The position numbers and the translations under genes were made by a program. Below the pieces are notes generated by a model. That model was not told the origin of the DNA, searched no databases, and saw only the letters and a list, made by a program, of their open reading frames with translations. Positions 876 through 38,114 of a stretch of 64,000 bases of DNA are shown here, one piece after another; the stretch's first letter is position 1, and each line of letters opens with the position of its first letter. Source of the stretch: Streptomyces sp. I6 (GTDB taxonomy: Bacteria; Actinomycetota; Actinomycetes; Streptomycetales; Streptomycetaceae); the NCBI GenBank assembly GCA_003725745.1, contig RHDP01000001.1, positions 62,001 to 126,000 on the forward strand, written 5' to 3'.

Positions 876-1037
876 ATCATGCCCGGTTCGGGTGCTCCCC
901 GCCGTTGCCCGCAGCCTTCGGGCGGCCCCGGTCAGCCCCGTGCGCGAGGCGGCGTGGGATCCGGCTCGGCAGGCGGGCCGGGTCCCACGGCCCCGGCGTG
1001 CGGCTGCGCCATGCGGGGCCGTGCATGGCGCACCCGG

Positions 1038-1571
1038 TCAGCCGCCAGCCGGTCCCCGGTCCGGTCGCGGCGCTCCTCCGCCGGGAAGGCCGGGCCCACG
1101 GGGCGGGTGGCAGGCGCCCTCGGTGTCCGGACCGCCGGCGCCGCGGGCGTCCGCGGCGGCCGGCCCGGAGCAGCAGGCGCCGCCCCGCTGCCCGGCCGGG
1201 GGTCCGGCGTCGGCCTTGACGACGTACACCTCCCAGGGCTCCCGGCCGGGGCCGCGGACCCAGACCTTGTCCTGGAGAGCGTGGCAGCAGGTCGTGTCGT
1301 ACTCCTCGGTGGTGGCCAGGCCCGCCTCGCCCAGCCGGGCGGTGGCGGCACGGACGGCTTCGGAGGTGTCGACCTCGACGCCGAGGTGGTCGATGCGGGT
1401 CGCCTCGCCCTCGCCGCCCTCGGTCAGGACGAGCTTGAGCGGGGGCTCGGCGATGGCGAAGTTCGCGTAGCCGTCGCGGATCTTGTCGGGCCCGGTGGCG
1501 AAGAACCCGGTGTAGAAGGCGACCGACGCGGCCAGGTCCGGTACGCGGAGGGCGAGTTGCAGGCGGGACAT
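1038..1571 (-). CDS. arsI: ArsI-type C-As lyase (VOC fold, CadI/ArsI family)
   Basis: A 177-residue vicinal-oxygen-chelate protein. The N-terminal beta-alpha motif (LALRVPDLAASVAFYTGFF), the metal-binding IDHLGVEV strand and the EVYVVKAD strand are typical of ArsI/CadI. The adjacent cysteine pair in DTTCCHALQDKVWV is the arsenic-binding pair that defines ArsI, the Fe(II) dioxygenase that cleaves the C-As bond of trivalent methyl- and aryl-arsenicals. A second Cys-Cys pair lies in the low-complexity tail. An upstream frame extension to 1739 reads Pro/Ala-rich nonsense, so I chose the ATG at 1571, which follows a GGGAGG ribosome-binding site. It lies 34 bases after the flavoprotein stop, so the two probably form one operon divergent from arsR. 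Confidence 0.85.
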   Translation of the reverse strand: MSRLQLALRVPDLAASVAFYTGFFATGPDKIRDGYANFAIAEPPLKLVLTEGGEGEATRIDHLGVEVDTSEAVRAATARLGEAGLATTEEYDTTCCHALQDKVWVRGPGREPWEVYVVKADAGPPAGQRGGACCSGPAAADARGAGGPDTEGACHPPRGPGLPGGGAPRPDRGPAGG

Positions 1572-1605
1572 GATCGGGCCTCCCTGCCTGGTTGGGGGGA
1601 CGGTG

Positions 1606-3012
1606 TCAGCAGCCACCGGATCCGGCCGGGGCTCCGGCACCGATCCGGAGGGTTGCGGGGGTGGTGGCGCAGCAGCCGCCGTCCTCGCCGGCCGGGGCGG
1701 CGCCGGGCTCGTCGAAGAGGCCGGATCCGCCGCAGACACCCGTCTCGGGGAGGGTGAGCTCGACGCGTGCGGCGGCCTCGTGGTCGCCGGCCAGCGCGGC
1801 GGCGACGGAGCGGACCTGCTCGAAGCCGGTCATGGCGAGGAACGTGGGGGCGCGGCCGTAGGACTTCATGCCGACGAGGTAGACGTCCTTCTCCGGGTGC
1901 GCGAGCTGCCCAGCGCCGTGGGGGTAGACGGTTCCGCAGGAGTGGACGTTCGGGTCGATCAGGGGTGCCAGCTCGACGGGGGCCTGGAGGCGCTCGTCGA
2001 GGCCGAGGCGCAGCTCGGCGAGGAAGGACAGGTCGGGGCGGAACCCGGTGAGGACGACGACCTCGTCGACCGGGTCCAGTCGTCGGCCGTCCTCCGCGAC
2101 GATCACCAGCCGCTCGCCGTCGGTCCCCGTGCCGGTGCCGGAGCCGGAGCCGGTGCCGGTGCGGGTCTCGATCGCGACGGCCCGGAACCCGGTGACGGCG
2201 TCGGCCTTTCCGGAGTCGACGGCCGCCTTCGCCGCAAGGCCGAGGGCACCGCGGGCGGGGAGCTGGTCGGATTCGCCGCCGCCGAAGGTGGAGCCGGAGA
2301 GGCCGCGCCGCAGGACCCACACCGCCTTGGTGTCCGGGGCGTCCTCGGCGAGTCCGGCCAGGAGGGCGAGTGCGGTGAAGGCGGAGGCGCCGGAGCCGAT
2401 GACGGCGGTGCGCTTGCCCGCGTACCGGGCGCGCTGGGCTTCGTCGCGCAGGTCGGGCACGCGGTAGGAGACGCGGTCGGCTGCGGTGCGCTCGCCGAGG
2501 GCCGGAAGGCCGTCGCCGCCGAGGGGGCCGGGCGTGGACCAGGTGCCGGAGGCGTCGACGACCGCGCGGGCGGTGATCCTCTCCTCGGTGCCGTCAGTGT
2601 TGAGGATCCGGACGGTGAAGGGCTGCCTCTCGCGGTCGGCGTCCACGACCCGGTCGCGGCCGAGACGGGAGACACCGGTGACGCGCGTACCGAACCGGAC
2701 CCTGTCGCCGAGGGCGTCAGCCAGGGGCTGGAGGTACCGCTGCACCCAGTCGCTGCCGGTGGGGTAGCCGGCCCCGTCCGGCCGCACCCAGCCGGTGGGG
2801 GCCAGGAGCTTCTCGGCGGCGGGGTCGACCACTTCGCTCCAGGTGGAGAACAGCCGCAGATGGCTCCACTCCCGCACCGCGCTGCCGGCGCCGTCTCCGG
2901 CCTCCAGGACCAGCGGCTCGAGGCCGCGTGCGACGAGGTGGGAGGCGGCGGCCAGACCGATCGGGCCGGCCCCGATCACCACGATGGGCAGGGCGGCGTT
3001 GGGCTGGTTCAC
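1606..3012 (-). CDS. arsO: FAD/NAD(P)-dependent oxidoreductase, ArsO-like
   Basis: A 468-residue two-dinucleotide-binding flavoprotein. The FAD-binding motif VVIGAGPIGLAAASHL is at residues 10-25, and a second GxGxxA motif (AVIGSGASAFTALALL) marks the NAD(P) site near the middle. The same class is found in actinobacterial ars islands as ArsO, a putative flavin monooxygenase. A Gly-Thr/Ser repeat (about 2120-2165) makes a flexible loop, and the C-terminal tail carries several Cys residues (GGCC and GGC). I chose the GTG at 3012 because the frame upstream runs through the ArsR-type operators. An ATG inside the operator (near 3092) is the alternative and would add about 27 residues. The exact reaction is unproven; location and neighbours point to arsenic metabolism. 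Confidence 0.75.
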   Translation of the reverse strand: MNQPNAALPIVVIGAGPIGLAAASHLVARGLEPLVLEAGDGAGSAVREWSHLRLFSTWSEVVDPAAEKLLAPTGWVRPDGAGYPTGSDWVQRYLQPLADALGDRVRFGTRVTGVSRLGRDRVVDADRERQPFTVRILNTDGTEERITARAVVDASGTWSTPGPLGGDGLPALGERTAADRVSYRVPDLRDEAQRARYAGKRTAVIGSGASAFTALALLAGLAEDAPDTKAVWVLRRGLSGSTFGGGESDQLPARGALGLAAKAAVDSGKADAVTGFRAVAIETRTGTGSGSGTGTGTDGERLVIVAEDGRRLDPVDEVVVLTGFRPDLSFLAELRLGLDERLQAPVELAPLIDPNVHSCGTVYPHGAGQLAHPEKDVYLVGMKSYGRAPTFLAMTGFEQVRSVAAALAGDHEAAARVELTLPETGVCGGSGLFDEPGAAPAGEDGGCCATTPATLRIGAGAPAGSGGC

Positions 3013-3027
3013 GATGACCCCGATTCT

Positions 3028-3106
3028 GTTTCGATATCCGTCGATGGACTGCTCCGTCAGCATGGCATCTGTTTCGACATACGTCAACATAGGCAGGTAT
3101 CGAAAC
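3028..3106 (-). promoter_or_regulatory. ArsR-type operator of the arsO-arsI promoter
   Basis: A GTTTCGA motif at 3071 faces its complement TCGAAAC ending at 3106, giving a 36-base interrupted palindrome. A further half-site GTTTCGATAT lies at 3028-3037. The left 22 bases (3071-3092) recur almost exactly in front of arsR at 3405-3426, in the same + orientation. This is most simply the ArsR binding site that silences the flavoprotein-arsI operon until arsenite is present. Confidence 0.75.
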
Positions 3107-3404
3107 AACCGGGTCGCGGGGGCGCGGTGACATCCGGCGGCGGGTGGGCAGCCCGGCGCCATCCGCGACTCCGGGTACCGTCCGCACAGGGGCGCGGCAG
3201 CCCCAGGCACCGGCGGGCCGGCTCGCCCCGGCCGCGGCGCACGCCCCGGCCGCCTGCCGCGCGGCACACGGCCGGCACCGCACCGCACCGGCACCGCACA
3301 TGCACATGCACCGGCGCGGGCACCGGCACTCCGCCCTGCCGCGGCGCGAGACCGCCACGCACATTCACCGCCCGGCGGGGGCGGCAGCGACCGCACCCGA
3401 TCGT

Positions 3405-3440
3405 GTTTCGACGTGTGTCAACATAGACCTATGTCGAACA
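3405..3440 (+). promoter_or_regulatory. ArsR autoregulatory operator overlapping the arsR start
   Basis: GTTTCGACGTGTGTCAACATAG is the second copy of the operator sequence seen at 3071. It is followed by CCTATGTCGAACAC, so a dyad (GTTTCGAC / GTCGAACAC) spans the arsR ATG at 3431. Binding here would block arsR itself. Because the start codon lies inside the dyad and no Shine-Dalgarno sequence precedes it, the transcript may be leaderless. Confidence 0.75.
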
Positions 3441-3802
3441 CCAAGGCGCTGCCGCTGCTCGAACCCGCCGGACAGGGCACGGTGCCGTGCTGCCCGCCAC
3501 TGGCCGAGCGGCCGATGACGGCCGAGGAGGCGGAGACGGCCGCGCGCATGTTCAAGGCACTCGGCGACCCGGTCAGGCTGAGGCTGTTCTCCTCGGTCGC
3601 CTCGCACGAGGGCGGGGAGGCGTGCGTGTGCGACATCTCCGACGTCGGGGTGTCCCAGCCGACGGTCTCCCACCATCTGAAGAAGCTCAAGGAGGCCGGG
3701 CTGCTGACCTCGGAGCGGCGCGGCACCTGGGTCTACTACCGGGTGCAGCCGTCGGTCCTCGCCGCGATGGGCAGGCTCCTCACCCCGGCCCCCGGCGCCT
3801 GA
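3431..3802 (+). CDS. arsR: ArsR/SmtB-family arsenical-responsive repressor
   Basis: A 123-residue winged-helix repressor. FKALGDPVRLRLFSSVASHE is the canonical ArsR opening. ACVCDISDVGVSQPTVSHHL contains the CxC metalloid-binding pair at the start of the DNA-recognition helix. The wing RRGTWVYYRV follows. An extra Cys-Cys pair near the N terminus (VPCCPP) is common in actinobacterial ArsR and may complete the As(III) site. The ATG at 3431 was chosen over a GTG at 3413 because the latter lies deep inside the operator. It is divergent from arsO-arsI, with matching operators at both promoters, so it should repress itself and that operon. Confidence 0.93.
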   Translation: MSNTKALPLLEPAGQGTVPCCPPLAERPMTAEEAETAARMFKALGDPVRLRLFSSVASHEGGEACVCDISDVGVSQPTVSHHLKKLKEAGLLTSERRGTWVYYRVQPSVLAAMGRLLTPAPGA

Positions 3803-4038
3803 CCGACCGACCGCCGCCACCGGACGCAGAGCACGGGGCAGCCGGCCGACGGACCCGCAGGGCCCCGGCCACGGGGCGACGGGACGGCGCGGAACCCCGG
3901 GCCCCGGCCGCCGGGGAGCGGGCCGCAGAGCCTCCCGACACCACCGGGGCGCGGGTCCCGGCATCCGGGGCAGCCGCCCCGAGCAGTCCGTCCCCGGTGC
4001 CCTGGACACCCGCACCGCGGCCCCTGCTCCGCACGGCC

Positions 4039-4080
4039 GTGCGTGGGTGGTGTCGGCCCGGGCCGACACCACCCACGCGC
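4039..4080. terminator. Bidirectional terminator: 38-bp perfect palindrome
   Basis: Positions 4041-4078 form a perfect inverted repeat with 19-bp arms (GCGTGGGTGGTGTCGGCCC and its complement) and no spacer. One wobble and one more pair extend it outward. It sits between convergent arsR (ends 3802) and the monooxygenase (ends 4169). The remainder of 3803-4168 is Pro/Arg-coding-like G+C-rich sequence without a gene I can support. Confidence 0.85.
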
Positions 4081-4168
4081 GGCGGCACGCAGGCCCGGCA
4101 GCGGGACGCAGTGCGCGCGCCGTTGCGGGCACGCGCCGTACGCCCCGCGCCCCGTGCGCCGCAAACGC

Positions 4169-5506
4169 TCAGACGCCGGAGCCCGCCCCGGCCGGGCCGG
4201 CCTCGCGGTGCGCGAGGAGCGAGGCGCAGATCTCCCCGGCCCGGACGGCCGTGGTCGACAGCAGGGTCGAGGCGAGACCGTGGGTGTGCTCGGTACCGCC
4301 CTGGAGGTAGATCGCCGCCGTCACGTCGGGCGCGGTCTCCACCCGGTGGTCGCGGCCGACCCGGAGAGCGTCCTCCTCGTCCCTGAGGCAGAGTTTGCCG
4401 ACCTCTCCCAGGTCGTCCCCCAGGCCACGTGACCGGTAGCCGGTGGCGTGGACGAGCAGGTCGGCCTCCAGCACCTCGCGTTCGCCGGTGGGCAGGAACT
4501 CGACCGCCAGGCGGACACCGTCCGCGTGGGCCCCGACCTCCCGGATGCGGGAGACGTTCATCATCCGCAGCCGCTGCCGGCCCTTCACCTTCTCCCGGTA
4601 CATCGTCCGGGACAGCGACTCGATCAGGTCCGTGTCCACCACCGAGTAGTTGGTGCCGCGGTGGTAGTCGAACAGCGAGCGCTTCACGTCCGCGGGCGCA
4701 CCGTAGTAGACGTCGACCGCCTCCGGGTCGAAGATCCGGTTGGCGAACGGGCTGTCATCTGCCGGGGTGTAGCCGTACTTGCCGAACACGGAGCAGATCT
4801 CGGCGCCGGGGAAGCTCCGGTGGAGGTGGTCGACCGCCTCCGCGGCACTCTGGCCGGCACCGAGGACGACGGCACGGTCCACCGGGGCTCCGGAGCGCTG
4901 GAATTCGGCGACCCGGGGCAGCAGCTCACTGGTGTGCCAGACGCGTTCGGACAGCATGGTTCCGGGCGGCAGACGCGGTTCGAGGCCGGTGGCCACGCAG
5001 AGGGCGCGGGTGCGGCGGACGGCCGTGCGCCCGGGGTCCGCCGGGTCGCGGCTGGCGACGTCGAACCAGCGGACCTCTCCGCCCTCGGCGACCGGACGCA
5101 CCGAGACGACCTCGGCGGAGTACTCGACGAGGTGAGCCAGGCGCGCCGCGGCCCACTCGAAGTAGTCGTGGAACTCGATGCGCAGGGGGAAGAGCGACTT
5201 CTGGTTGAGGAAGTCGACGAGCCTGCCCCGCGCGTGCAGATAGGCGAGGAAGCTGAAGTCGCTGGTCGGGTCGCGCAGGGTCACCAGGTCCTTGAGGAAG
5301 GAGACCTGCATGGTGGCGTCGTCGATGAGCATGCCCCGGTGCCAGCCGAACCCCGGCTGCCGTTCCAGGAACAGGGCGCGGAGCCGGTCGCCGGGGCGTC
5401 TCGCGGCTCGCTCCTGAACGGCGATGGCGAGAGCCAGGTTCGACGGCCCGAAGCCGATGCCCAGGACGTCGTGGATGTGTTCCGGGTTGCCGTGCAGTGC
5501 CGTCAC
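4169..5506 (-). CDS. L-ornithine N5-monooxygenase (siderophore biosynthesis)
   Basis: A 445-residue flavin- and NADPH-dependent hydroxylase of the SidA/PvdA/CchB/IucD family. Visible features are the FAD motif GIGFGPSNLALAIA at the N terminus, the conserved WHRGMLIDDATMQVSFLKDL block, the NADPH motif VVLGAGQSAAEAVDHL in the middle, the NYSVVDTDLIESL substrate segment and the C-terminal ATGY motif. It should convert L-ornithine to N5-hydroxyornithine, the hydroxamate precursor. The GTG at 5506 was chosen because GGGGAGG lies about 10 bases upstream; the frame before it is Pro/Gly-rich. It is divergent from the formyltransferase, with an iron box between them, so it should be iron-repressed. 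It corresponds to CchB of the coelichelin cluster. Confidence 0.95.
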   Translation of the reverse strand: MTALHGNPEHIHDVLGIGFGPSNLALAIAVQERAARRPGDRLRALFLERQPGFGWHRGMLIDDATMQVSFLKDLVTLRDPTSDFSFLAYLHARGRLVDFLNQKSLFPLRIEFHDYFEWAAARLAHLVEYSAEVVSVRPVAEGGEVRWFDVASRDPADPGRTAVRRTRALCVATGLEPRLPPGTMLSERVWHTSELLPRVAEFQRSGAPVDRAVVLGAGQSAAEAVDHLHRSFPGAEICSVFGKYGYTPADDSPFANRIFDPEAVDVYYGAPADVKRSLFDYHRGTNYSVVDTDLIESLSRTMYREKVKGRQRLRMMNVSRIREVGAHADGVRLAVEFLPTGEREVLEADLLVHATGYRSRGLGDDLGEVGKLCLRDEEDALRVGRDHRVETAPDVTAAIYLQGGTEHTHGLASTLLSTTAVRAGEICASLLAHREAGPAGAGSGV

Positions 5507-5584
5507 CGCGTCATCGCCTCCCCAGGGGGGGTCGCAGTGCCCCGGAGCGGGAACACGGGCTCCCCCGACCAGACACATGTTAGA

Positions 5585-5603
5585 TAAGGTTAGCCTTACC
5601 TTT
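5585..5603. promoter_or_regulatory. Iron box (DmdR/IdeR-type operator)
   Basis: TAAGGTTAGCCTTACCTTT is a 19-bp near-palindrome matching the actinobacterial iron box (TTAGGTTAGGCTCACCTAA-like). It lies between the divergent monooxygenase (start 5506) and formyltransferase (start 5625), so one site can repress both when Fe(II)-DmdR is bound. Confidence 0.9.
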
Positions 5604-5624
5604 CAATGGCTGAGGAGGGCTCAG

Positions 5625-6572
5625 ATGCGGGTCGTCATGTTCGGCTACCAGACGTGGGGGCACCGGACGCTGCAGGCGCTGCTGGACTCCGGGCACGGGG
5701 TCGCCCTGGTCGTCACGCACCCCCGGAGCGAGCACGCCTACGAGCGGATCTGGAGCGACTCGGTGGCCGGTCTCGCCGACAAGCACGGTGTGCCCGTGCT
5801 GCTGCGCAACCGCCCCGACGACGCCGAACTCCTCCGGGCCGTCCGGGAGGCGGAACCGGACATCATCGTGGCGAACAACTGGCGCACCTGGCTCCCCCCG
5901 GAGATCTTCGACCTGCCCCGGCACGGCACCCTCAACATCCACGACTCCCTGCTGCCGGCCTACGCCGGCTTCTCGCCGCTGATCTGGGCCCTCATCAACG
6001 GGGAGAAGGAGGTGGGGGTCACCGCCCACCGCATGAACGCCGAGCTGGACATGGGCGACATCCTGCTGCAGCGCCGGGTGCCGGTCGGCCCGGCCGACAC
6101 CGCCACGGACCTCTTCCACCGCACGGTGGACCTGATCGGCCCGCTCGTCGCCGACTCGCTCGATCTGGTCTCCTCGGGCAGGGCGGTGTGGACGCCGCAG
6201 GACACGGCGCGCTCCAGCTTCTTCCACAAACGCTCCCCCGAGGACAGCCGGATCGACTGGACCTGGCCCGCCGACGCGCTCGAGCGCTTCGTCCGGGCCC
6301 AGTCCGACCCGTATCCCAACGCCTTCACCCACCACCGCGGCAGGCGCCTGAGGATCGTGTCCGCCCGAGTATCACGGGGGCGCTACGGCGGCACCCCCGG
6401 CCGGATCTTCATCCGCGAAGGGGACGGGGTCGTCGTCGTCGCGGGCGCCGAGGCACGCTCGGGCCGGCTCCCGGGACTGGTGGTCCGGCGGGTGCGGACG
6501 GAGGACGGCCTGGAACTCGCCGCGCCGGAGTACTTCCGCACCATGGGGGGATATCTGACGGGCCGTCCATGA
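5625..6572 (+). CDS. N5-hydroxyornithine formyltransferase (Fmt-like)
   Basis: A 315-residue protein of the methionyl-tRNA formyltransferase fold. The catalytic Asn-x-His of TLNIHDSLLPAYAGFSPLIW is at about residues 104-106, and the Asp of ELDMGDILLQ is at about 142-145. These form the Asn-His-Asp triad that transfers formyl from N10-formyl-tetrahydrofolate. The C-terminal oligonucleotide-binding-like domain is shorter than in tRNA enzymes. It corresponds to CchA and should make N5-formyl-N5-hydroxyornithine for the NRPS. The ATG at 5625 follows GAGGAGG. The gene stands alone after the iron box and runs convergently into the uptake ATPase (ends 6624). Confidence 0.93.
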   Translation: MRVVMFGYQTWGHRTLQALLDSGHGVALVVTHPRSEHAYERIWSDSVAGLADKHGVPVLLRNRPDDAELLRAVREAEPDIIVANNWRTWLPPEIFDLPRHGTLNIHDSLLPAYAGFSPLIWALINGEKEVGVTAHRMNAELDMGDILLQRRVPVGPADTATDLFHRTVDLIGPLVADSLDLVSSGRAVWTPQDTARSSFFHKRSPEDSRIDWTWPADALERFVRAQSDPYPNAFTHHRGRRLRIVSARVSRGRYGGTPGRIFIREGDGVVVVAGAEARSGRLPGLVVRRVRTEDGLELAAPEYFRTMGGYLTGRP

Positions 6573-6623
6573 CCCGCGAGCCCGGGAGGCGGCCCCGAGG
6601 GGCGGCAGGTGGCGCCGGGGCCG

Positions 6624-7571
6624 TCATCCGACGGCGTCCGGGACGGGCGCGCCCCCGGCGCCGCGCTCCGGGACGTGGTGCCGGCCGATCGGGACCACCA
6701 TGGGGGCGCCGCTGACGGGATCGCCGCCGACGACGCAGCGCAGACCGAAGACGTCCTCCACCATCGCGGCGGTGACGACCTCGGCGGGCGCGCCCTCACC
6801 CACGACACGGCCGCCCTTCATGGCGATGATGTGGTCGGCGTAGCGGCAGGCGTGGTTGAGGTCGTGCAGCACCATGACGACCGTCCTGCCCTGCTGCCGG
6901 TTCAGATCGGTGACGAGGTCCAGGACATCGATCTGGTGTGCGAGGTCCAGATAGGTGGTGGGTTCGTCCAGCAGCAGCACGGGGGTGCCCTGGGCGACCG
7001 CCATCGCGATCCAGGCCCGCTGCCGCTGTCCGCCGGAGAGCTCGTCGACGGCGCGGTGGGCGAGGTCCGCCATCGACGTGGCGCGCAGCGCGTCGTCCAC
7101 CGCCCGCTCGTCGCCGGGCGACCACTGCCGCCACCAGGTCTGGTGCGGTGACCGGCCGCGTCCCACGAGGTCGATGACGGTCAGCCCCTCGGGAGCGACG
7201 GGCGACTGGGGCAGGATGCCCAGTCGGCGGGCCAGCTCGCGGGTCGGGATCGAGTGCACCGAGCGCCCGTCCAGGTGTACGGCACCGGCCCGGGGCCTCA
7301 GCAGCCGGGCGAGGGCGCGCAGCAGGGTCGACTTGCCGCAGGCGTTGGCGCCGACGATCACCGTCACGCGTCCCGGGGGGATGGCCACGTCGAGGTCCTC
7401 CACGACGATCCGGTCGTCGTAGGCCAGCCGCAGCCTCCGCGCGCTCAGTTCGGGGGCGTCCCGGTACGGCCCGGTGGCCCGCTTCCGCCGTCCGGGGGCG
7501 CGGGCCGGCCGCTCCCGGGACGGTACGGGCGGTGCGGCACCGCGCGGGCGGTCCCCGTATGTCGATGACAC
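6624..7571 (-). CDS. Ferric-siderophore ABC transporter, ATP-binding subunit (FepC-like)
   Basis: A 315-residue ATPase. The Walker A motif is GANACGKSTLL, the signature is ELSGGQRQRAWIAMAVAQ, Walker B is VLLLDEPTTYLDLAHQ and the switch His is in MVLHDLNHACRYADHI. The DEPTTYLD and LHDLNHA forms are typical of FepC/FecE. About 50 low-complexity residues precede the ATPase domain. I placed the GTG start at 7571 because GGAGG lies 9 bases upstream; open frame continues beyond it but overlaps the permease gene. It is the last gene of a three-gene uptake operon (5 bases after the permease stop) and is equivalent to CchE. Confidence 0.93.
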   Translation of the reverse strand: MSSTYGDRPRGAAPPVPSRERPARAPGRRKRATGPYRDAPELSARRLRLAYDDRIVVEDLDVAIPPGRVTVIVGANACGKSTLLRALARLLRPRAGAVHLDGRSVHSIPTRELARRLGILPQSPVAPEGLTVIDLVGRGRSPHQTWWRQWSPGDERAVDDALRATSMADLAHRAVDELSGGQRQRAWIAMAVAQGTPVLLLDEPTTYLDLAHQIDVLDLVTDLNRQQGRTVVMVLHDLNHACRYADHIIAMKGGRVVGEGAPAEVVTAAMVEDVFGLRCVVGGDPVSGAPMVVPIGRHHVPERGAGGAPVPDAVG

Positions 7572-7576
7572 GTTCC

Positions 7577-8707
7577 TCAACCTCCTGAACCGGTGCGGTT
7601 GGCGCGGACGAGCAGCCACAGCAGTACCGGGGCGCCGAGCACCCCGGTGACGATCCCGGCCGGAAGCTCGGTGCCGGGGATCAGCTTCCGGGCGGCCAGA
7701 TCGGACACCAGCACGACGAGGGCGCCCGTCAGACCGGAGGCGACGGGCGGTGGGAGGGGCGTGCCCGCCAGCCGCTGGGCGATCTGCGGGGCGGCCAGCG
7801 CGACGAACGCCACCGGGCCGGCGGTCGCGGTGCCGAAGGCCACCAGCCCGACGGAGCAGACCAGTACGGCGATGCGCACGGCCTGTACGCGGACGCCGAG
7901 GCCCCGGGCGAGGTCGTCGCCCAGCTGGAGGGTCCGCAGCTGCCGCCCGAGCAGCAGGGCCGCCGGCAGGAGCACGGCCAGGGCGAGGGCGAGCGGGCCG
8001 ATCTGCTGCCAGGTGCGGGCGTTGAGGTTGCCGACGAGCCAGCCCAGGGCCGCCTGTGCCTCGAACTGCCGGCCGTGGGCCATGAGGTAGTCGGTGGCGC
8101 TGGTGCAGATCCACGCGACGCCGACGCCGACGAGGACGATCCGGTAGCCGGTGGTGCCCCGCCGCCATGCGAGCACGTACACCGCGAGCGCGGCGGTGAG
8201 CGCGCCGAGCAGTCCAAGGAACTGCGTGCCGGGGCCGAAGTCCCAGCCGAGGACGAGGCCGGCGACCACGGCGGTACCCGCACCCTGGGTGATGCCCATC
8301 ATGTCCGGACTCGCCAGCGGGTTGAGGGTCATGGTCTGGAGCAGCGCGCCCGAGACGCCGAAGGCGATGCCGACGAGCAGGCCTGCCACGGCCCTGGGCA
8401 GGCGGAGTTCGTGGACGATGAGCCGGGTCTCCGGGTCGCCCGCCCCGGCCACCGCCCGCAGCACCTCGGCGAGCGGGAGGGAGGCCTCGCCGGCGGACAC
8501 GCCCGCCAGGAACACGGCGCATACGGCGGCGGCCAGCACCGCGCAGACACCCAGCGTGCGGGGCCTGAGGACCCCGGAGGCGGGCGGGACGGCGAGCCGG
8601 TAGGCGATCCTGCCGGGAGAACGCCTCGGGGACGGTGCCCCGGGCACGGGTTCCCGGCCGTGCCCGGGGCCGGGTTCGCCGTGCCCGGGGGCGAGTTCGG
8701 TCGTCAT
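7577..8707 (-). CDS. FecCD-family ferric-siderophore permease (second subunit)
   Basis: A 376-residue integral membrane protein with about ten hydrophobic segments after a 45-residue Pro/Gly-rich cytoplasmic leader. FecCD hallmarks are HELRLPRAVAGLLVGIAFGV, SGALLQTMTLNPLASPDMMG (a conserved periplasmic and coupling region) and GPVAFVALAAPQIAQRL. It should pair with the permease encoded just upstream (ends 8711, 3-base gap) to form the translocation pore for the ferric siderophore. It corresponds to CchD. Confidence 0.93.
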   Translation of the reverse strand: MTTELAPGHGEPGPGHGREPVPGAPSPRRSPGRIAYRLAVPPASGVLRPRTLGVCAVLAAAVCAVFLAGVSAGEASLPLAEVLRAVAGAGDPETRLIVHELRLPRAVAGLLVGIAFGVSGALLQTMTLNPLASPDMMGITQGAGTAVVAGLVLGWDFGPGTQFLGLLGALTAALAVYVLAWRRGTTGYRIVLVGVGVAWICTSATDYLMAHGRQFEAQAALGWLVGNLNARTWQQIGPLALALAVLLPAALLLGRQLRTLQLGDDLARGLGVRVQAVRIAVLVCSVGLVAFGTATAGPVAFVALAAPQIAQRLAGTPLPPPVASGLTGALVVLVSDLAARKLIPGTELPAGIVTGVLGAPVLLWLLVRANRTGSGG

Positions 8708-8710
8708 GGG

Positions 8711-9766
8711 TCACAGCTCCGCGAGTCGTCGGCGGCGTACCGTCGCGATGAAGAAGGGCCCGCCGACGAAGGCGACCAGGACCCCCGCCTGGATCTCGAC
8801 CGGCCGGGCGACCAGCCGGCCCGCGATGTCCGCGGCCAGCAGCAGGCAAGGGGCGAGCAGCGCCGACAGGGGCAGCAGCCAGCGGTGGTCGGGGCCGATG
8901 CCCGCGTACCGGGCGAGGACGCGGGCGATATGCGGTACGACGAGGCCGACGAAGACCACGGGGCCGATGACGGCGACGGCACCGCCGGTGAGGAGGGTGA
9001 CGGCCACCACACCCCGGGCGCGCAGCGTCCCGGTCCCCAGTCCCAGGGATCTGGCGACGTCGTCGCCGAGGGCGAGGCCGTTGAGTCCGCGGGCGCACGA
9101 GAGGGCGAGCACGGTGCCGAGCGCGAGGAACGGCAGCACCCGCAGCAGGACGTCACCGTCCTGGCCGGCGAGGGAGCCCGCCGACCAGAAGCGGTAGCGG
9201 TTGAGGGCGTCGGGGTCGGTCAGGGCCACGGCGCTGGTGAGGGAGAAGAGCACGGAGGTCACGGCGACGCCTGCCAGCGCGAGTTTGACGGGGGTGTACC
9301 CGGACCGGCCGAGTCCGCCGAGCAGTTGGACGAGGACGGTCGCGGCCAGGGCGCCGGCGAACGCGAACCAGATGTGGCCGTGGAGGGAGCCGAGGCCGAG
9401 GACTCCGGCGGAGAGCACGACGGCGAAGGCCGCGCCGGCGCTCACGCCGAGGATGCCGGGGTCCGCGAGCGGGTTGCGGGTCAGTGCCTGCATGAGCGCC
9501 CCGGACAGCCCCAGGGCGGCCCCGGTCACGAGCCCGAGGGCGGTGCGCGGGAGCCGGACGGACCAGATCACGTTGTCCACGCGGGAGTCGGGGGCCTCGC
9601 CGAACAGGGTGTCCCAGACCTGCCCGGGCGGGACGCTGAGGGCGCCCGACGCCAACGAGGCGCCGCACAGCGCCAGCAGCGCCCCCGCGGACAGCGCGAG
9701 CAGCAGTACTGCGCGGGGGCGTTTCGCCGCCCGGACCGCCAAGGTCCCCACGTCGCCTTCCTCCAC
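8711..9766 (-). CDS. FecCD-family ferric-siderophore permease (first subunit)
   Basis: A 351-residue, roughly ten-pass membrane protein of the BtuC/FecCD family. Hallmarks are SVRLPRTALGLVTGAALGL, SGALMQALTRNPLADPGILG and GPVVFVGLVVPHIARVL. It is the first gene of the uptake operon; its start lies about 77 bases from the iron box at 9843-9861, which it shares with the divergent NRPS. Tight spacing to the next permease and ATPase indicates one transcript. It corresponds to CchC. Confidence 0.93.
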   Translation of the reverse strand: MEEGDVGTLAVRAAKRPRAVLLLALSAGALLALCGASLASGALSVPPGQVWDTLFGEAPDSRVDNVIWSVRLPRTALGLVTGAALGLSGALMQALTRNPLADPGILGVSAGAAFAVVLSAGVLGLGSLHGHIWFAFAGALAATVLVQLLGGLGRSGYTPVKLALAGVAVTSVLFSLTSAVALTDPDALNRYRFWSAGSLAGQDGDVLLRVLPFLALGTVLALSCARGLNGLALGDDVARSLGLGTGTLRARGVVAVTLLTGGAVAVIGPVVFVGLVVPHIARVLARYAGIGPDHRWLLPLSALLAPCLLLAADIAGRLVARPVEIQAGVLVAFVGGPFFIATVRRRRLAEL

Positions 9767-9842
9767 GGTCGGGCCTGCGTCGGCCGCAGGACGAGTGCGG
9801 CCGGGGCGGCCCCTTCGGGGAAGCCCGCAGGCACCCTGTGAA

Positions 9843-9861
9843 TTAGGTAACCCTTACCTTA
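9843..9861. promoter_or_regulatory. Iron box between uptake operon and NRPS
   Basis: TTAGGTAACCCTTACCTTA is a 19-bp imperfect palindrome of the DmdR/IdeR class. It lies between the divergent permease operon (start 9766) and the NRPS (start 9923), placing uptake and synthesis under the same iron control. Confidence 0.92.
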
Positions 9862-9922
9862 GTATGACGGCGATCCCCGGCCCAGTGCCGGGACTCACCC
9901 GCTTGGGGAGGGACGGCAAGAG

Positions 9923-29262
<19,340 letters not shown>

Positions 29263-29364
29263 CGCCGGGACCGCGACGAGGACGTGTGCGGTGCCGGAAC
29301 CGGGGACAGCGACGTGCATGGTGGTGCCGGAGCAAGGGCCACGGCAGGAGGAGGAGACCAGATC

Positions 29365-29574
29365 ATGACCAATCCGTTCGAGGACGCCGACGGCGTCTAC
29401 CGGGTGCTCGTCAACGACGAGAACCAGCACAGCCTGTGGCCCGACTTCACGGCGGTGCCGGCCGGCTGGCGGGCCGTCCACGGCCCCGCCTCCCGGCAGT
29501 CCTGCCTGGACTACGTCGAGACCCACTGGACGGACATGCGGCCCAGGAGCCTGGCCGAGTCGATGGACGGCTGA
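29365..29574 (+). CDS. mbtH: MbtH-like NRPS accessory protein
   Basis: A 69-residue protein with the full MbtH signature: NPFED at the start, [35 protein letters not shown] and [10 protein letters not shown]. MbtH proteins bind adenylation domains and are often needed for their folding or activity. The ATG at 29365 follows GGAGGAGGAG; an upstream extension to 29284 is not conserved. It lies 102 bases after the NRPS stop, so it is likely co-transcribed. It corresponds to CchK of the coelichelin cluster. Confidence 0.96.
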
Positions 29575-29648
29575 CGTGCGGGGCGCTGGGGTACCGGGCG
29601 GCTGAGGTACCGGGCGGCTGACGTACGGGGCGGCTGACGTACGGGCGG
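29570..29648 (+). repeat. Five tandem 15-16-bp repeats at the end of mbtH
   Basis: GCTGACGTACGGGGCG-type units start at 29570, 29585, 29601, 29617 and 29633. The first unit contains the mbtH stop codon. I see no coding role. It may be a replication-slippage minisatellite. Confidence 0.85.
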
Positions 29649-29680
29649 CGGTGTGGGCCGCGGCGGACACACGCGGACCG

Positions 29681-29714
29681 GGGGCCGGCCGCGGAGTCCA
29701 CCGCGGCCGGCCCC
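29681..29714. terminator. Bidirectional hairpin terminator after mbtH
   Basis: A perfect 14-bp stem (GGGGCCGGCCGCGG at 29681-29694 with its complement at 29701-29714) closes a 6-base loop. It lies between convergent mbtH and the siderophore-binding lipoprotein gene. Confidence 0.85.
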
Positions 29715-29732
29715 GTACGTGCGCAAACGGTG

Positions 29733-30818
29733 TCAGGAAGCGGGCTGCCGGACCTCGGTGGAGGGAGAGCCGTCGACGGCCGCCGCGAGCTGCGGAGCCA
29801 GCCGGTCGATGACGTACGGCAGGCTGAGCACCGACACGAAGGACGTGGCGTGACCGTAGTCGCTGGTCTCGTCGATGAAGACCTCGCGGCCCTCCTTCAC
29901 CACCGCGAGGTCCCGGTACGAGGCGTCCCGGTGCAGCTTCAGCGTGTCCTTCGCCACGTCGCCGACGATCCAGACGACGGCTCCCTGGTCGAGCAGGTCG
30001 ATGCGCTCCTTGCTGATGCCGGCCCCGAACCGGTCGCCGATCGCGGCGTCCAGGCCGTCGGGTACGGCGAATCCGAGGCCGGTGAGGACACGTGAGCGGG
30101 GGTCCTGGCTGCCGAAGACGAAGATGCCCTCGTACGGCGTGGCCACGACGGCGGTGGCGCCCCGGAAGCCGGGGTGCTCCCGGGCGGTGGCCGCGATCTC
30201 CGCCTCGACGGACTCGACGGCCTTCGCCGCCTCGTCCGCCTTGCCGAGCGCGCGTCCCACGGTCCTCGTCTGCTCCTGCCAGGGGATGCCGTAGTCGTTG
30301 TGCTCCTTCGGCTGCGCGACCACGGGGGCGAACGCGGACAGGGACGTGTACTGCTCCTTGGTCAGTCCGCCGTAGAGCGCCAGGATCAGGTCCGGCTTGA
30401 GAGCCGCGATCCGCTCCACCTGGGGGCCGGTCCCGGTGTCCTTGAGCACGGTCGGGGCCGGGCCGCCGCCCAGTTCGGGCCGTGCCCAGGGTCCGATGGC
30501 GCCCTCGTAGCCGCCGAGCCACTCGGTCGTACCGACCGGGACCTCGCCGAGGGCGAGCACCGCGTCCTGGTCGGTGAGGCCGACGGTGACGATCCGCTCG
30601 GGTTCGGACGTGATCGTGGTACTGCCGTACTTGTGCGCGATGGTGACCGGGAAGGCGTCCCCGCCGCCGGACGCACCGGCCCCGGGTGCGGATTCGCCGG
30701 TACCGGGGCCGGGGCCGGGGCCGGAGCCGGAGCCCCCGCCGCACGCGGCGGTGGCGAGCAGGATGACGGCGGAGGCCAGCGCGGCGGAGAGGCGTGGAAC
30801 TCTGCGGGAGCGGGGCAT
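29733..30818 (-). CDS. Ferric-siderophore-binding lipoprotein (FepB/FhuD class)
   Basis: A 361-residue lipoprotein. The signal peptide ends in the lipobox LLATAAC with Cys at residue 26, followed by a Gly/Pro/Ser linker and then a periplasmic-binding-protein-like fold. Features are ITSEPERIVTVGLTDQDAVLALGEVPVG, the LKPDLILALYGGLT turn and a long central helix (about residues 190-215), typical of class III binding proteins for iron siderophores. It should capture the ferric complex outside the membrane and deliver it to the FecCD permeases (equivalent to CchF). It lies 120 bases downstream of the exporter genes on the same strand and may share their iron-controlled promoter. Confidence 0.93.
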   Translation of the reverse strand: MPRSRRVPRLSAALASAVILLATAACGGGSGSGPGPGPGTGESAPGAGASGGGDAFPVTIAHKYGSTTITSEPERIVTVGLTDQDAVLALGEVPVGTTEWLGGYEGAIGPWARPELGGGPAPTVLKDTGTGPQVERIAALKPDLILALYGGLTKEQYTSLSAFAPVVAQPKEHNDYGIPWQEQTRTVGRALGKADEAAKAVESVEAEIAATAREHPGFRGATAVVATPYEGIFVFGSQDPRSRVLTGLGFAVPDGLDAAIGDRFGAGISKERIDLLDQGAVVWIVGDVAKDTLKLHRDASYRDLAVVKEGREVFIDETSDYGHATSFVSVLSLPYVIDRLAPQLAAAVDGSPSTEVRQPAS

Positions 30819-30938
30819 CGGTCGTTCCTTCGTTCGGGCTCCGGTGGAGCGGCGGTGCGGGGTCTCGGGGCGAGGGTGGCGGTGCGGAGGTGGGGTCTGG
30901 GCGGTCGTAGGGGGCCGGGCCGGTCGTGCCGGGGTCCG

Positions 30939-32813
30939 CTAGGCGCCGGTGTCACGCGCTTCCGACCATGCCTCCCACAGCGATGCGTAGCGGCCCCGGG
31001 CGGCGCGCAGTTCGTCGTGGGTGCCGGACTCGACGATCCGCCCGGACTCCATGACGACGATGCGGTCGGCCGCCGCAGCCTGGCTGAGCCGGTGGGCGAC
31101 GACGAGTGCCGTCCGGCCGTCCACGGCGCGCGCCACCGCCTTCTCGAGCGCGCGCGCTCCGGCGCTGCCCGCTTCGGCGGTGGCCTCGTCCAGGATCACC
31201 AGCGGCGGGTCGGCGAGGACGAGCCGGGCGAGGGCGAGGGCCTGCGTCTTCGCCCCGTCGAGCCGGTGCCCGCCGCCGCCGACCACGGTGCCGAGGCCGT
31301 CGGGAAGTTCCTCCGCCCAGGCGAGGGCGTCCACGCGGTCGAGCGCGGCGCGCAGTTCACCGTCGGTGGCGCCGGGTCCGGCCAGCCTCAGGTCGTCGGC
31401 GAGGAGCCCCGCGAACACATGGGTCTCCTGGGTGATCAGGGCGACCGTGCCGCCCGCGGCCACGGGGCCGAGTTCCGTGGGCGGGGCTCCTCCGACCAGG
31501 ACCGTGCCGGTGGCCGGCGGCTGGATACCGGCGATCAGCCTGGCCAGGGTGGTCTTGCCCGCTCCGCTCGGGCCGACGAGCGCGACCCGTTCGCCCTGGC
31601 GGATCGTCAGGTCGATGTCGTGCAGCACGGGATGTCCCGGCCGGTAGGCGTGGCCCACGCCCCGCACGATGACCTCGGTGCCGCCGGCCACCCGGCGGCG
31701 GACCGGATCCCGAGGCGGGGGCCGGTCGGTGACGCCGACGAGCCGGGCCAGGCTCGCGTGGGCCGACTGGGCGTCGTCGAGCAGGACCAGGGCCGCGTTG
31801 ACCGGGGTGAAGAGGCTGTGGAAGTAGAGGGCGGCCGCGGTCGCCGTGCCGACGGACGCCGCGCCCTGGCGGACCAGCCAGTAGCCGGTGACCAGAACCG
31901 CGGCGAGACCCAGGTACTCGGCGATGTGCAGCCTGCTGTAGAAGCCGAGCACCAGCCGCACCCCGCGCATGGTCAACCGGACCACGGACCAGGACCGGTC
32001 GGCGACGCGCCGGGTGTGCTCCCGCTCCAGGCGGTAGGCGCGCAGGGTGGATCCGCCGCCGATGGTGTCGAGCAGCTGCTGCTGCTGGGCGCTCCCCGCC
32101 ACGCGCTGCTCCGCGTAGAGCGGCACCGCGCGGCGTACGTACCAGCGCGCGGTGAGCGCCTGGACGGGCACCGCGATCAGCGCGGCCAGCAGGAACCGCC
32201 AGTCGAGCAGGGCCAGTGCCCCGAGGGTGAGGACGATGGTGAGGAGCGAACGGGCCAGTTCGGGCAGGGCGTTGCGCACGGCTTCGGCGATCAGGGACAC
32301 ATCGGCGGTGACCCGGGCCGTCAGGTCCCCGGCGCCGGCCTTCTCGACGCGGTCGAGCGGCAGTTCGAGGGCCCGCTCGACGAAGCGCTCGCGCAGCCGG
32401 GCCAGTGTCGTCTCGCCCAGCCGGGAGATCAGGGAGAGCCCGAGCCCGGTGGCGGCCCCCTGGCCCACGGCGACGGCGACGAGCAGCGCGGCGGTGAGGG
32501 TGACGGCGTCGGCCGGCCCGCGCCCGGCGGCGAGATCGACGATCCGGCCCAGCAGCGGCTGAACGAGCAGGCCCACGGCGGTGGCGGCGGTCATGACGGC
32601 GAAGGCGGTGACCGCCAGGGCGCGCTGCGGGCGCAGCAGCCGGGCGACGGCGGCACGGGTACGGGCCGGGGTGGCGACGGGAAGCAGCGGACTCGCGCCG
32701 GGCGGAGGGCCGTTGGGTCCGTCAGGGCCGTCAGGGCGGCCGGGGTCGTCCGGTCCGTCAAAGCCGTCAGGGCGGCCGGGGTCGTCCGGTCCGTCGGCCC
32801 GGGGTCCGGTCAC
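30939..32813 (-). CDS. ABC exporter half-transporter, catalytic Walker A/B, degenerate signature
   Basis: A 624-residue fused TMD-NBD protein with six predicted membrane helices, then an ATPase domain. Walker A (GPSGAGKTTLARLI), Walker B (VILDEATAEAGS) and the switch His (VVAHRLSQ) are intact, but the signature reads LDGAKTQALAL rather than LSGGQ. This complements its partner, which has a good signature and broken Walker motifs. A 40-residue Asp/Gly/Pro repeat (PDDPGRPDG) heads the protein. It overlaps the upstream gene by four bases, indicating translational coupling. The likely role is siderophore export, as for the exporter genes of other Streptomyces hydroxamate clusters. An IrtAB-like uptake or reduction role is less likely because no siderophore-interacting domain is present. 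Confidence 0.88.
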   Translation of the reverse strand: MTGPRADGPDDPGRPDGFDGPDDPGRPDGPDGPNGPPPGASPLLPVATPARTRAAVARLLRPQRALAVTAFAVMTAATAVGLLVQPLLGRIVDLAAGRGPADAVTLTAALLVAVAVGQGAATGLGLSLISRLGETTLARLRERFVERALELPLDRVEKAGAGDLTARVTADVSLIAEAVRNALPELARSLLTIVLTLGALALLDWRFLLAALIAVPVQALTARWYVRRAVPLYAEQRVAGSAQQQQLLDTIGGGSTLRAYRLEREHTRRVADRSWSVVRLTMRGVRLVLGFYSRLHIAEYLGLAAVLVTGYWLVRQGAASVGTATAAALYFHSLFTPVNAALVLLDDAQSAHASLARLVGVTDRPPPRDPVRRRVAGGTEVIVRGVGHAYRPGHPVLHDIDLTIRQGERVALVGPSGAGKTTLARLIAGIQPPATGTVLVGGAPPTELGPVAAGGTVALITQETHVFAGLLADDLRLAGPGATDGELRAALDRVDALAWAEELPDGLGTVVGGGGHRLDGAKTQALALARLVLADPPLVILDEATAEAGSAGARALEKAVARAVDGRTALVVAHRLSQAAAADRIVVMESGRIVESGTHDELRAARGRYASLWEAWSEARDTGA

Positions 32814-34576
32814 GCCAGCACCGCCGCTCGGTAGTCGGCATGGGTGCCGGCCAGGTGCCCGTGGTCGCCGGTGGCCGTGACCTTGCCGTCCTGCAGCAGG
32901 ACCACCCGGTCGGTCACGGCGAGCAGTGCGGGGCTGCTGGTGACGAGCACGGTCGTGCGGCCCCGGCGGATCTCCTTGATACCGGCGGCCATCCGCATCT
33001 CGGTAACGGCGTCGACGGCGGTGGACGGCTCGTGGAGGACGAGCACGGGGGCGTCGGCGGCCAGGGCTCTGGCCAGGGCGACGCGCTGCCGCTGACCGCC
33101 GGACAGCGAGCGTCCGCGTGCGGTGACCGGGGTGGCGGCACCGTCGGGCAGGGAGCGGGCGACCTCGTCGGTGCCCGAGGCGGCCATCGCGGCGGACGGG
33201 CTCACGGTGCGGCGTCCACCGGCCGGGGCGGGGGCTGCGGTGACGTTCTCCAGGAGCGTGCCCTCGAACAGGTCCGCGTCGTGCTCGGCCACGAGGATCG
33301 CACCGCGCGCCTGCGACAGGTCCAGCATGGTGAGGGCCCTTCCGTCGAGTTCGACGGCACCGTGCTCGGGGTCCGACCGGCGGCCCAGGCAGTGCAGCAG
33401 TGCCGAGGCGTCAGCGGGACGCGTGGTGACGACGCCGACGGTCTCCCCCGCCGCGATGTCGAGGTCGACCGCGCGCAGGGGACCGTGGGAGAGGTTCCGC
33501 AGGTGCAGGCGGCCCGCGACGGGCAGCGGCCGTACGGGAGCGCCGGGGAGTCGCGGCACCGTGCTCACCGCGGGACGGGCACCGAGGACCCCGGCGATGC
33601 GCGCGGCCGACGCCCGGCCCTGGGCCAGTTCCGCGTTGACCCAGGAGAACTCGGAGAGCGGGCCGATGAGGAAGAGCGCCAGTGCGACGCACGACACGAG
33701 TTCGCCGATACCGATGTCGCCGCGGGCGGCCAGCCGGCCGCCGACGAGCGCGACGAGCGCGACAAGGGCTCCGGTGAGCAGGGTCACGACCCCGTTCTGC
33801 CACGCCTCGGCGCGGGCCGCCCGTAAGGTCGCGGACAGCGAGTCGCGGCTGATGCCGCGGTAGCGGTCGGCGGCCGCGGGCTCGGCGCCGATGCCCTTCA
33901 GCACGCGGAGACCGGCCACGAGGTCCGCTGCGACGCCCGCTGCGCGCGCCGCGCACTCCTGCTCGGTCTCACTGCGCCGCTCCAGCGGTCTGCTCAGCAG
34001 GTGCCCCAGCCACAGCAGCAGCGGGGTCCCGAGCAGCACGAGCAGACCGAGGGTGACGGACACTCTGAGCAGGACCACCGCGCCCACCGCGAGGCCCGCG
34101 GCCGCACCGGTGCCGACGATCACCGCCATGGCGACGGCGCCGACCCTTCTGGCGTCCTCGGTCGCGATGCCGGCCAGCTCGCCGGGCAGCCGGCCCTCCT
34201 CCGCCCCGCCTTCGGGTGCGAGGACGCGTTCGACGAGCGCGACACGGAGCCGGTGGGCGGCGGTGAGCGAGGCGCGTTCGCCGGCGCGGGCGCCGTACCG
34301 GAAACCGTAGGAGAGTCCGACGTAGACGACGGCGAGTACGCCGAGCCACAGCGTCAGTCCAGCGGCGTCCCCCTCGACGACTCCCCGATCGATGGCCAGT
34401 CCGATGAGGACGGGGACGAGCGCCTCGCCGGCCTGATGGCACGCCCCGAGGAGCACGCCGAGCGCGACGGAGGCGCGGCAGCCGCGGATGGACTGCCGCA
34501 GGACGTCCCGTCCCCGGAGCTCCGGCTTCCCCACCCATCCCTCCGGATACGGCTCAGAAGTGCCCAGGAACCGCAC
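32810..34576 (-). CDS. ABC exporter half-transporter, degenerate Walker motifs, intact signature
   Basis: A 588-residue fused TMD-NBD protein. The position of Walker A reads VVTTRPADASALL, with no GxxGxGKT. Walker B reads VLVLHEPSTAVD, with His for Asp. The switch His is replaced (VLVTSSPALL). The signature RSLSGGQRQRVALARAL is perfect. Paired with the downstream half, the two make one competent and one dead nucleotide site, as in asymmetric heterodimeric exporters. The GTG start at 34576 lies only seven bases from an iron box. It is the first gene of the exporter-lipoprotein group, so the group is likely iron-repressed and the transcript nearly leaderless; a downstream start is possible. Confidence 0.88.
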   Translation of the reverse strand: MRFLGTSEPYPEGWVGKPELRGRDVLRQSIRGCRASVALGVLLGACHQAGEALVPVLIGLAIDRGVVEGDAAGLTLWLGVLAVVYVGLSYGFRYGARAGERASLTAAHRLRVALVERVLAPEGGAEEGRLPGELAGIATEDARRVGAVAMAVIVGTGAAAGLAVGAVVLLRVSVTLGLLVLLGTPLLLWLGHLLSRPLERRSETEQECAARAAGVAADLVAGLRVLKGIGAEPAAADRYRGISRDSLSATLRAARAEAWQNGVVTLLTGALVALVALVGGRLAARGDIGIGELVSCVALALFLIGPLSEFSWVNAELAQGRASAARIAGVLGARPAVSTVPRLPGAPVRPLPVAGRLHLRNLSHGPLRAVDLDIAAGETVGVVTTRPADASALLHCLGRRSDPEHGAVELDGRALTMLDLSQARGAILVAEHDADLFEGTLLENVTAAPAPAGGRRTVSPSAAMAASGTDEVARSLPDGAATPVTARGRSLSGGQRQRVALARALAADAPVLVLHEPSTAVDAVTEMRMAAGIKEIRRGRTTVLVTSSPALLAVTDRVVLLQDGKVTATGDHGHLAGTHADYRAAVLA

Positions 34577-34582
34577 GACAAC

Positions 34583-34601
34583 TTAGGCAAGGCTAACCAT
34601 C
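34583..34601. promoter_or_regulatory. Iron box in front of the exporter genes
   Basis: TTAGGCAAGGCTAACCATC matches the DmdR/IdeR iron box; its right half is less perfect than in the other two boxes. It sits immediately upstream of the exporter start (34576). Confidence 0.85.
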
Positions 34602-35000: not shown

Positions 35001-35923
35001 GTGAGCCGGATGCCAGGATCCCGTTCTCGTTCGCGGTATGCACCCGACCGGGGACTGACCACCCGCATGGTGACGACGATGTTCCTGATCGGACTGCTGT
35101 ACGTGGTCTTCGTCGGCGTGCTGCTGGCCATCCTCCGCGACTCCTGGTTCCTCGTCCTGGTGATCGCCGGCGGTCTGTTCGTCGTGCAGTTCTGGTTCAG
35201 CGACCGGATCGCCGCGTACAGCATGGGGGCGCGCGAGGTCACCCCGAGCAGGCACCCGAGCTGCACGGCGCCGTGGACCGGATCTGCGCCCTCGCCGACA
35301 TGCCCAAGCCCCGGGTGGCCATAGCCGACAGCGACGTGCCCAACGCGTTCGCCACCGGCCGCAACGAGAAGACCGCCCTCGTCTGCGCCACCACCGGTCT
35401 CCTGCGCCGCCTGGAGCCGGAGGAACTGGAGGGCGTGATCGCACACGAACTGTCGCACGTCGCCCACCGCGACGTCGTGGTGATGACCATCGCCTCCTTC
35501 CTCGGCGTACTCGCGGGGCTGATGGTGCGGGTCTGGCTCTACAGCGGGCTCAGCCGCGGCAGCCGCGACGTCAACACGGCCGTGGCGGTGCTGGTGGTCC
35601 CGCTGGTGAGCGCCGCCGTCTATGTGATCAGCTTCCTGCTGACCCGGCTGCTGTCCCGCTACCGGGAGCTGTCCGCCGACCGCGCCGCCGCACTGCTGAC
35701 CGGCCGCCCGTCGGCACTCGCGTCGGCGCTGACCAAGGTGACGGGCCAGATGGCCAGGATCCCGACGCGGGACCTGCGGAAGGCGGAGCCGTTCAACGCG
35801 TTCTGGTTCGCCCCGGCGTTCTCCTCCAAGGAGAGCCTCGGCAGGCTGCTCTCCTCCCACCCGACGCTGGAGCAGCGGCTGGACCAGCTGGGCAGGATCT
35901 CGCTGCAGCTCGGCCGCCCGTGA
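35001..35923 (+). CDS. htpX: HtpX-like M48 zinc metalloprotease (one -1 frameshift)
   Basis: After adding one base at the C run 35242-35245, the gene encodes 307 residues. Two N-terminal membrane helices (about residues 27-67) are followed by MPKPRVAIADSDVPNAFATG and the zinc motif HELSHVAH, then two more membrane segments, the third ligand region YRELSADRAAALL and HPTLEQRLDQL. This is membrane-bound HtpX, which degrades misfolded membrane proteins. Without the correction only the N-terminal 80 residues and a separate catalytic frame can be read. The GTG at 35001 was chosen; an ATG at 35010 is equally possible. It is followed 49 bases later by PspAB, its usual partner. Confidence 0.9.
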
Positions 35924-35972
35924 CCGGCCCGGCACCCTCCCGGCCCTCGTCCGAGTGACAAGGACTCGACCC

Positions 35973-36593
35973 ATGGGACTCCTCGACGCCATCCTCGGCC
36001 GCAGCAAGCCGGTACGGCCCGACCTCGACCGGCTCTTCGGCCTGCCCTCGGCGGCGATCACCCTCCAGGCGGGAGCCGGCTTCGCCCCCACGGGGTCCGG
36101 CTCGGTGTGCTTCGCCGGAGTCGAGGGGGCGGCCTTCACGAGGATCCAGGACGACGTACGCGACCTCCTCGACGCCGACACCGGCCGGGGCGGTACGCCC
36201 GTGGAGTTCACCCGGGACGCGTACGGGTACACCTGGCTCCTGTCCCGCCATCCGGCCGACGACACTGCCTCACTGGTCAATGACCTGCACGCCGTGAACA
36301 CCCTGCTCCAGGACGCTGGTTTCGGCCCCCACCTACTCTGCTCGCTCGTCGGATTCCGCAACACCGCGACGCAGCGGGTGCTCGCCCTGGTGTACCTCTA
36401 CAAGCGGGGCACCTTCTATCCTTTCGCGCCCCTCCCGGGGGCCGCCGAGAAGCGCGACAATGCCCTGGAACTGCAGGTCAGGAGCCTGCTCGCGGACGAC
36501 GTGCCGATCGAGGAGGAGCTGGGCCGGTGGTTCCCCCTCTGGGGCGCCCCCGGCATCGCGGACGCTCCGGAGGAGGGCGGCGGGCACGGATGA
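35973..36593 (+). CDS. pspAB: PspA-associated protein PspAB
   Basis: A 206-residue soluble protein matching the PspAB family found next to HtpX in actinobacteria: MGLLDAILGRSKPVRPDLDRLF opening (first 20 residues conserved), TGSGSVCFAGVEGAAF, and LCSLVGFRNTATQRVLALVYLYKRG in the middle. Its function is not well defined; it is linked to the envelope-stress (Psp) response. The ATG at 35973 begins the conserved region. It shares an operon with htpX and ends just before a terminator hairpin. Confidence 0.9.
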   Translation: MGLLDAILGRSKPVRPDLDRLFGLPSAAITLQAGAGFAPTGSGSVCFAGVEGAAFTRIQDDVRDLLDADTGRGGTPVEFTRDAYGYTWLLSRHPADDTASLVNDLHAVNTLLQDAGFGPHLLCSLVGFRNTATQRVLALVYLYKRGTFYPFAPLPGAAEKRDNALELQVRSLLADDVPIEEELGRWFPLWGAPGIADAPEEGGGHG

Positions 36594-37952: not shown

Positions 37953-38114
37953 ACTCTCATTGTGCGCCCGGCTCCCGGTCCGGCAACGGCGTTGTCTAAG
38001 CTCCTCGCGGCAGGCGGAGGCCACTGCCGTACGCGTGCGGACCCGAGCGCCCGGCCCGGTACCCCGTACCCCTACCGTCACGGGCACGGCCGAGCCCCCG
38101 GCTTGACCGCCGGC

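Follow-up and report, generated by a model that had tools for sequence, protein, structure and literature searches.

A probable scabichelin gene cluster in a Streptomyces, with synthetase frame breaks that are most likely assembly indels

Genes and sites of the cluster

The window analysed here, 64,000 nucleotides in length, is C1:62001-126000 of G000, an assembly of 7.05 Mb in two contigs with a completeness of 87.4%. It contains a siderophore cluster with clear boundaries at positions 4169-34601, a span of 30.4 kb (Table 1). The gene order is monooxygenase (-), formyltransferase (+), ATPase (-), two FecCD permeases (-), synthetase (+), MbtH (+), binding protein (-) and two exporter halves (-). 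Genes for both an ornithine N-monooxygenase and a formyltransferase thus lie near the synthetase gene, as looked for in a scabichelin cluster. An earlier sequence-only reading had named an ornithine N-hydroxylase, a formyltransferase, a FecCD uptake system, an MbtH protein, a siderophore-binding protein and a two-part exporter, and our domain searches recovered every one of them, including both domains of the formyltransferase. Pfam named all of these proteins; in NCBIfam, among the best 25 matches listed per protein, none reached its cut-off for the monooxygenase, the ATPase, the binding protein or the half-transporters.

Table 1. Features of the siderophore cluster, in window coordinates
Feature	Position	Strand	Evidence
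L-ornithine N5-monooxygenase (hydroxylates ornithine)	4169..5578	-	Pfam Lys_Orn_oxgnase 2.2e-105, 353 bits; 78-80% identity to S. scabiei NC_013929
Pair of overlapping iron-box-like sites in the divergent monooxygenase/formyltransferase intergenic region	5580..5603	.	0-1 mismatches; position conserved in G034, S. scabiei and HM190
N5-hydroxyornithine formyltransferase	5610..6572	+	Formyl_trans_N and Formyl_trans_C; 85% identity to S. scabiei
Siderophore importer ATP-binding subunit, FepC/FecE-like; start codon uncertain	6624..7574	-	ABC_tran; top NCBIfam matches NF007606 and NF008409, both under cut-off
FecCD permease	7577..8707	-	PF01032 3.8e-82
FecCD permease	8711..9766	-	PF01032 5e-88
Iron-box-like site 5' of the NRPS	9843..9861	.	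0 mismatches; letters identical in G034, S. scabiei and HM190
NRPS module 1 start: remnant C, A1 core (DVWILAATN); two segments, break near 10660; start codon uncertain	9923..11560	+	Pfam, code, segments
NRPS: A1 end, MT1, T1, module 2 C-A-T (Ser code DVWHLSLVD), C3, A3 start	11562..18555	+	
NRPS module 3: A3 (code DMENLGLIN, hydroxyornithine) and MT3	18557..20386	+	
NRPS module 3: end of A3 C-terminal sub-domain, T3	20389..21472	+	
NRPS module 4: C4 and A4 core (code DGEDAGLVD, read as ornithine type)	21474..23811	+	
NRPS: A4 end, T4, module 5 C-A-T (code DAQEGGLVD), first part of terminal epimerase-type domain	23813..28603	+	
NRPS: remainder of terminal epimerase-type domain	28606..29259	+	TIGR01720, E motifs
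MbtH-like NRPS partner	29365..29574	+	PF03621 8.1e-30; 86% identity to S. scabiei
Predicted ferric-siderophore-binding protein (a lipoprotein in the sequence-only reading)	29733..30818	-	Peripla_BP_2 2.7e-16
ABC exporter half-transporter	30939..32813	-	ABC_membrane and ABC_tran; 80% identity to S. scabiei
ABC exporter half-transporter, 4-base overlap with the neighbouring half-transporter gene	32810..34576	-	ABC_membrane and ABC_tran; 72% identity to S. scabiei
Iron-box-like site 5' of the exporter genes	34583..34601	.	2 mismatches; present in G034 and S. scabiei

A looser, two-sided iron-box pattern matched six times on the two strands, against 0.11 matches expected, and none of 100 shuffles reached six. 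Owing to overlapping or two-strand readings, the six matches collapse to three places, so the three iron boxes proposed earlier were found again by this pattern; a stricter consensus matched nowhere, even with up to 3 mismatches allowed. The place 5' of the exporter genes had no counterpart in the stretch of HM190 examined, and no iron-box-like site was found directly upstream of the binding-protein gene.

By Pfam, the synthetase has five adenylation domains, two methyltransferase domains nested in modules 1 and 3 (the same two modules as in the earlier reading) and five carrier regions. The modules run A-MT-T / C-A-T / C-A-MT-T / C-A-T / C-A-T-E, colinear with S. scabiei. The five-module description therefore stands as regards its five adenylation domains and five carrier sites, but the gene is not continuous, being spread over eight frame segments; the condensation domain of module 1 is only a remnant; and the epimerase-type domain at the C-terminus (TIGR01720 at 92.4 bits, cut-off 74.2, with E motifs) had gone unmentioned. 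No thioesterase domain was found after this terminal domain, and none of the ten cluster genes was recognisable as a cyclising hydrolase. For the thioesterase-free assembly line of another siderophore cluster, a separate hydrolase has been proposed to carry out cyclisation (extract of PMC10683483). A motif search found the dual epimerase/condensation motif neither in the window segments nor in the S. scabiei synthetase. The usual condensation motif was likewise not found in C3 of either; in S. scabiei the corresponding stretch reads RHLILWDG.

Several other genes of the window were noted in passing. An M48-type peptidase and PspA-associated protein B adjoin the cluster (35001-36590), the peptidase lying in two frames by comparison with G034. 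A ROK-family regulator with a winged-helix part is found at 36672-38741 (-) and a WD40-repeat protein at 54811-55740 (-). An open frame of 1159 aa at 44570-48046 (-) has its ABC ATPase and TOBE domains confined to the C-terminal third, and the rest may be a shadow frame.

Adenylation codes and the expected product

Each adenylation code comprises nine positions, which were read by motif and not from a structure. All five codes of the window are identical to those of S. scabiei 87.22, at 9/9 positions each. Using the module-3 piece as scan query, we took the best 80 of at least 546 relatives for code comparison. Within these 80, full identity of the five codes occurs in two loci (S. scabiei 87.22 and S. 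stelliscabiei), and it is also found in G034; the remaining loci depart from this set at some position or in how many modules they have, or are truncated where a contig or locus ends. A match was found in 150 of 150 same-genus genomes, mostly through other synthetases, so this count is no measure of how frequent the cluster is. Our reading agrees with the earlier one for module 2 (serine code), module 3 (hydroxyornithine code) and module 4 (acidic pocket); DMENLGLIN of module 3 is taken here to be the hydroxyornithine code.

The likeness to S. scabiei 87.22 extends to the whole cluster. All ten genes of its scabichelin cluster (10/10) occur in the same order and orientation as in the window, an arrangement kept in HM190 and G034 as well, and the two clusters share the three iron-box places and agree in module order and in every adenylation code, with 67-87% amino-acid identity per synthetase segment. 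These comparisons sharpen the earlier suggestion of a scabichelin-like product. On the evidence of gene content and codes, we consider it highly probable that the window carries a Streptomyces scabichelin cluster, in which the synthetase frame breaks are most likely assembly indels. The cluster type has already been described, and the cluster in the window is an ordinary orthologue of the known one. In S. scabiei the recorded scabichelin cluster is SCAB_85431-85521, 30,019 bp (extract of PMC8914351), and the domain order published for related Phytohabitans clusters ends in E, as in the window (extract of PMC7692728).

The codes of modules 1 and 5 had previously matched nothing, and a new variant had therefore been thought possible. 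That doubt is answered, because both codes are those of S. scabiei 87.22. Moreover, within the best 80 of at least 546 loci the exact module-1 code is present in 51 and the exact module-5 code in 60, many of the others being cut at an end. The module-5 code of scabichelin, which loads hydroxyornithine, has been published as DAWEGGLVDK (extract of PMC7692728); the window code is one letter apart from it, at the third position (Q vs W), a difference that depends on the alignment. We think that one residue of FDASWQ was placed differently in the two readings. To judge from the codes, a product carrying a residue of another kind at position 1 or 5 is very improbable.

Turgichelin has serine at position 4. 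A locus of the turgichelin type, that of S. turgidiscabies Car8 (L031), also has five modules, and its codes 1, 3 and 5 equal those of the window; its module 2, in contrast, reads DVWHFSLVD where the window has DVWHLSLVD, and its module 4 is of the serine type, DVWHMSLVD, which fits turgichelin, whereas the window has DGEDAGLVD as in S. scabiei. This difference at module 4 makes turgichelin very improbable as the main product of the window cluster, even though turgichelin is reported besides scabichelin from S. scabiei, whose codes are the same (extract of PMC8914351). Because of that report, the product of the window cluster need not be single. We expect the main product to be scabichelin, with no novel variant, to judge from the codes; with a known compound expected, the cluster gives no ground for a new-compound hunt.

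Two other families can be compared. The Amycolatopsis loci, which we take to be albachelin-type clusters, share with the window the serine-type, hydroxyornithine and terminal hydroxyornithine codes, their first module lying outside the code reading. In the complete ones, two modules of serine type follow the DMEN module and there is no ornithine-type module, whereas the window has one. Coelichelin, a formylated hydroxyornithine peptide made by three modules, shares the hydroxyornithine code of module 3.

When iron is scarce, a DtxR-type repressor would come off the iron boxes and expression of the genes would begin. As their families suggest, the two tailoring enzymes would hydroxylate ornithine at N5 and formylate part of it at the same nitrogen. 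The five-module synthetase, assisted by MbtH, would then build a pentapeptide with two N-methyl groups, predicted to run N-methyl formyl-hydroxyornithine, serine, N-methyl hydroxyornithine, ornithine, hydroxyornithine, and would release it with the last hydroxyornithine cyclised. Scabichelin has a neutral exact mass of 647.36. The residues at modules 1 (formyl-hydroxyornithine) and 4 (ornithine) and the cyclised end are assumed here from the known structure of scabichelin, reportedly that of Kodani et al. 2013. The two half-transporters may export the product, and the binding protein, FecCD permeases and ATPase may re-import its ferric form.

Frame breaks in the synthetase gene

The synthetase is not one open frame in the window. 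Seven breaks, near positions 10660, 11560, 18557, 20390, 21475, 23813 and 28604, divide about 19.3 kb of coding sequence into eight segments, whereas S. scabiei has a single frame of 6358 residues; single frames are also present in G034 (6394 residues) and HM190 (6446). If the breaks were real, the window would hold a dead copy of the scabichelin cluster, and the strain would make no siderophore from it. Seven is a large number of breaks for one gene, and rpoC, which is similar in length to rpoB, is unbroken in G000 as it is in G034 and S. scabiei. The character of the breaks nevertheless argues against decay. The net frame shift is identical in all seven (7/7), none of the eight segments contains an internal stop (8/8), and dN/dS is 0.16-0.33 across all eight when they are set against G034, the nearest of the relatives compared, indicating purifying selection (for the longest segment, the estimate covers 1729 of 2327 residues).

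Core genes of the same assembly are broken in the same manner. In G000, rpoB (C1:4010705-4014011) and carB (C1:779707-782923) each lie in three frames, with two breaks apiece and the same net shift as in the synthetase; neither gene is broken in G034 or S. scabiei. Because of these four breaks with one and the same shift, we read the breaks in the synthetase as likely assembly indels, a reading made from frames and substitutions, and we regard a decayed pseudogene as improbable. The unbroken rpoC implies that the error rate of the assembly is uneven. Frame errors probably affect many genes of G000, and some caution is needed, as such errors could pass for pseudogenes.

Module 4 as a candidate exchange site

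Between S. scabiei and S. caniscabiei, identity is 90.2% over residues 601-3800 and 88.9% over residues 4801-6300, but only 51.5% over residues 4231-4700, which form the adenylation core of module 4. The same three stretches (in the order 601-3800, 4801-6300, 4231-4700) are 91.5, 92.1 and 90.4% identical when S. scabiei is compared with S. stelliscabiei, which like it is of the DGED type. Identity between S. scabiei and S. caniscabiei is lower, too, in the condensation domain that precedes the core (about 3801-4200), at 74-79% as against 83-96% for the DGED pair, so the exchange may extend into that domain.

A quick tree was built from the module-3 piece, with 81 rows, 61 of them labelled (the 20 without a readable end were excluded), and 24 weakly supported forks, and the make-up of the synthetases after module 3 was mapped on it. 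At least 17 changes are needed, while 200 shuffles gave a mean of 33.6 and a minimum of 26; this make-up is therefore partly inherited. Within the clade of the window (13 rows, 12 labelled) it changed at least three times. The module-4 type alone requires at least 10 changes; error in the tree may inflate all these numbers.

PMC8097286 describes the exchange of adenylation cores as a general pattern; its extract makes no mention of scabichelin. We think it probable that module 4 is a natural exchange site, at which ornithine-type and serine-type cores, in some cases perhaps together with a portion of the preceding condensation domain, have been swapped several times between synthetases otherwise about 90% identical, with extra modules gained or lost alongside. 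If so, the difference between scabichelin and turgichelin would be the outcome of a module-4 swap, and the window would hold one of the states. S. scabiei and S. caniscabiei would form a natural pair of assembly lines differing mainly in module 4, which could be useful for enzyme engineering.

Among the loci, L004 and L011 illustrate how sharply the adenylation core of module 4 can differ between close relatives, with about 90% identity in the more distant flanks. Relatives with six modules, among them L017, L022, L028 and L032, have one module of each type, ornithine and serine, after module 3.
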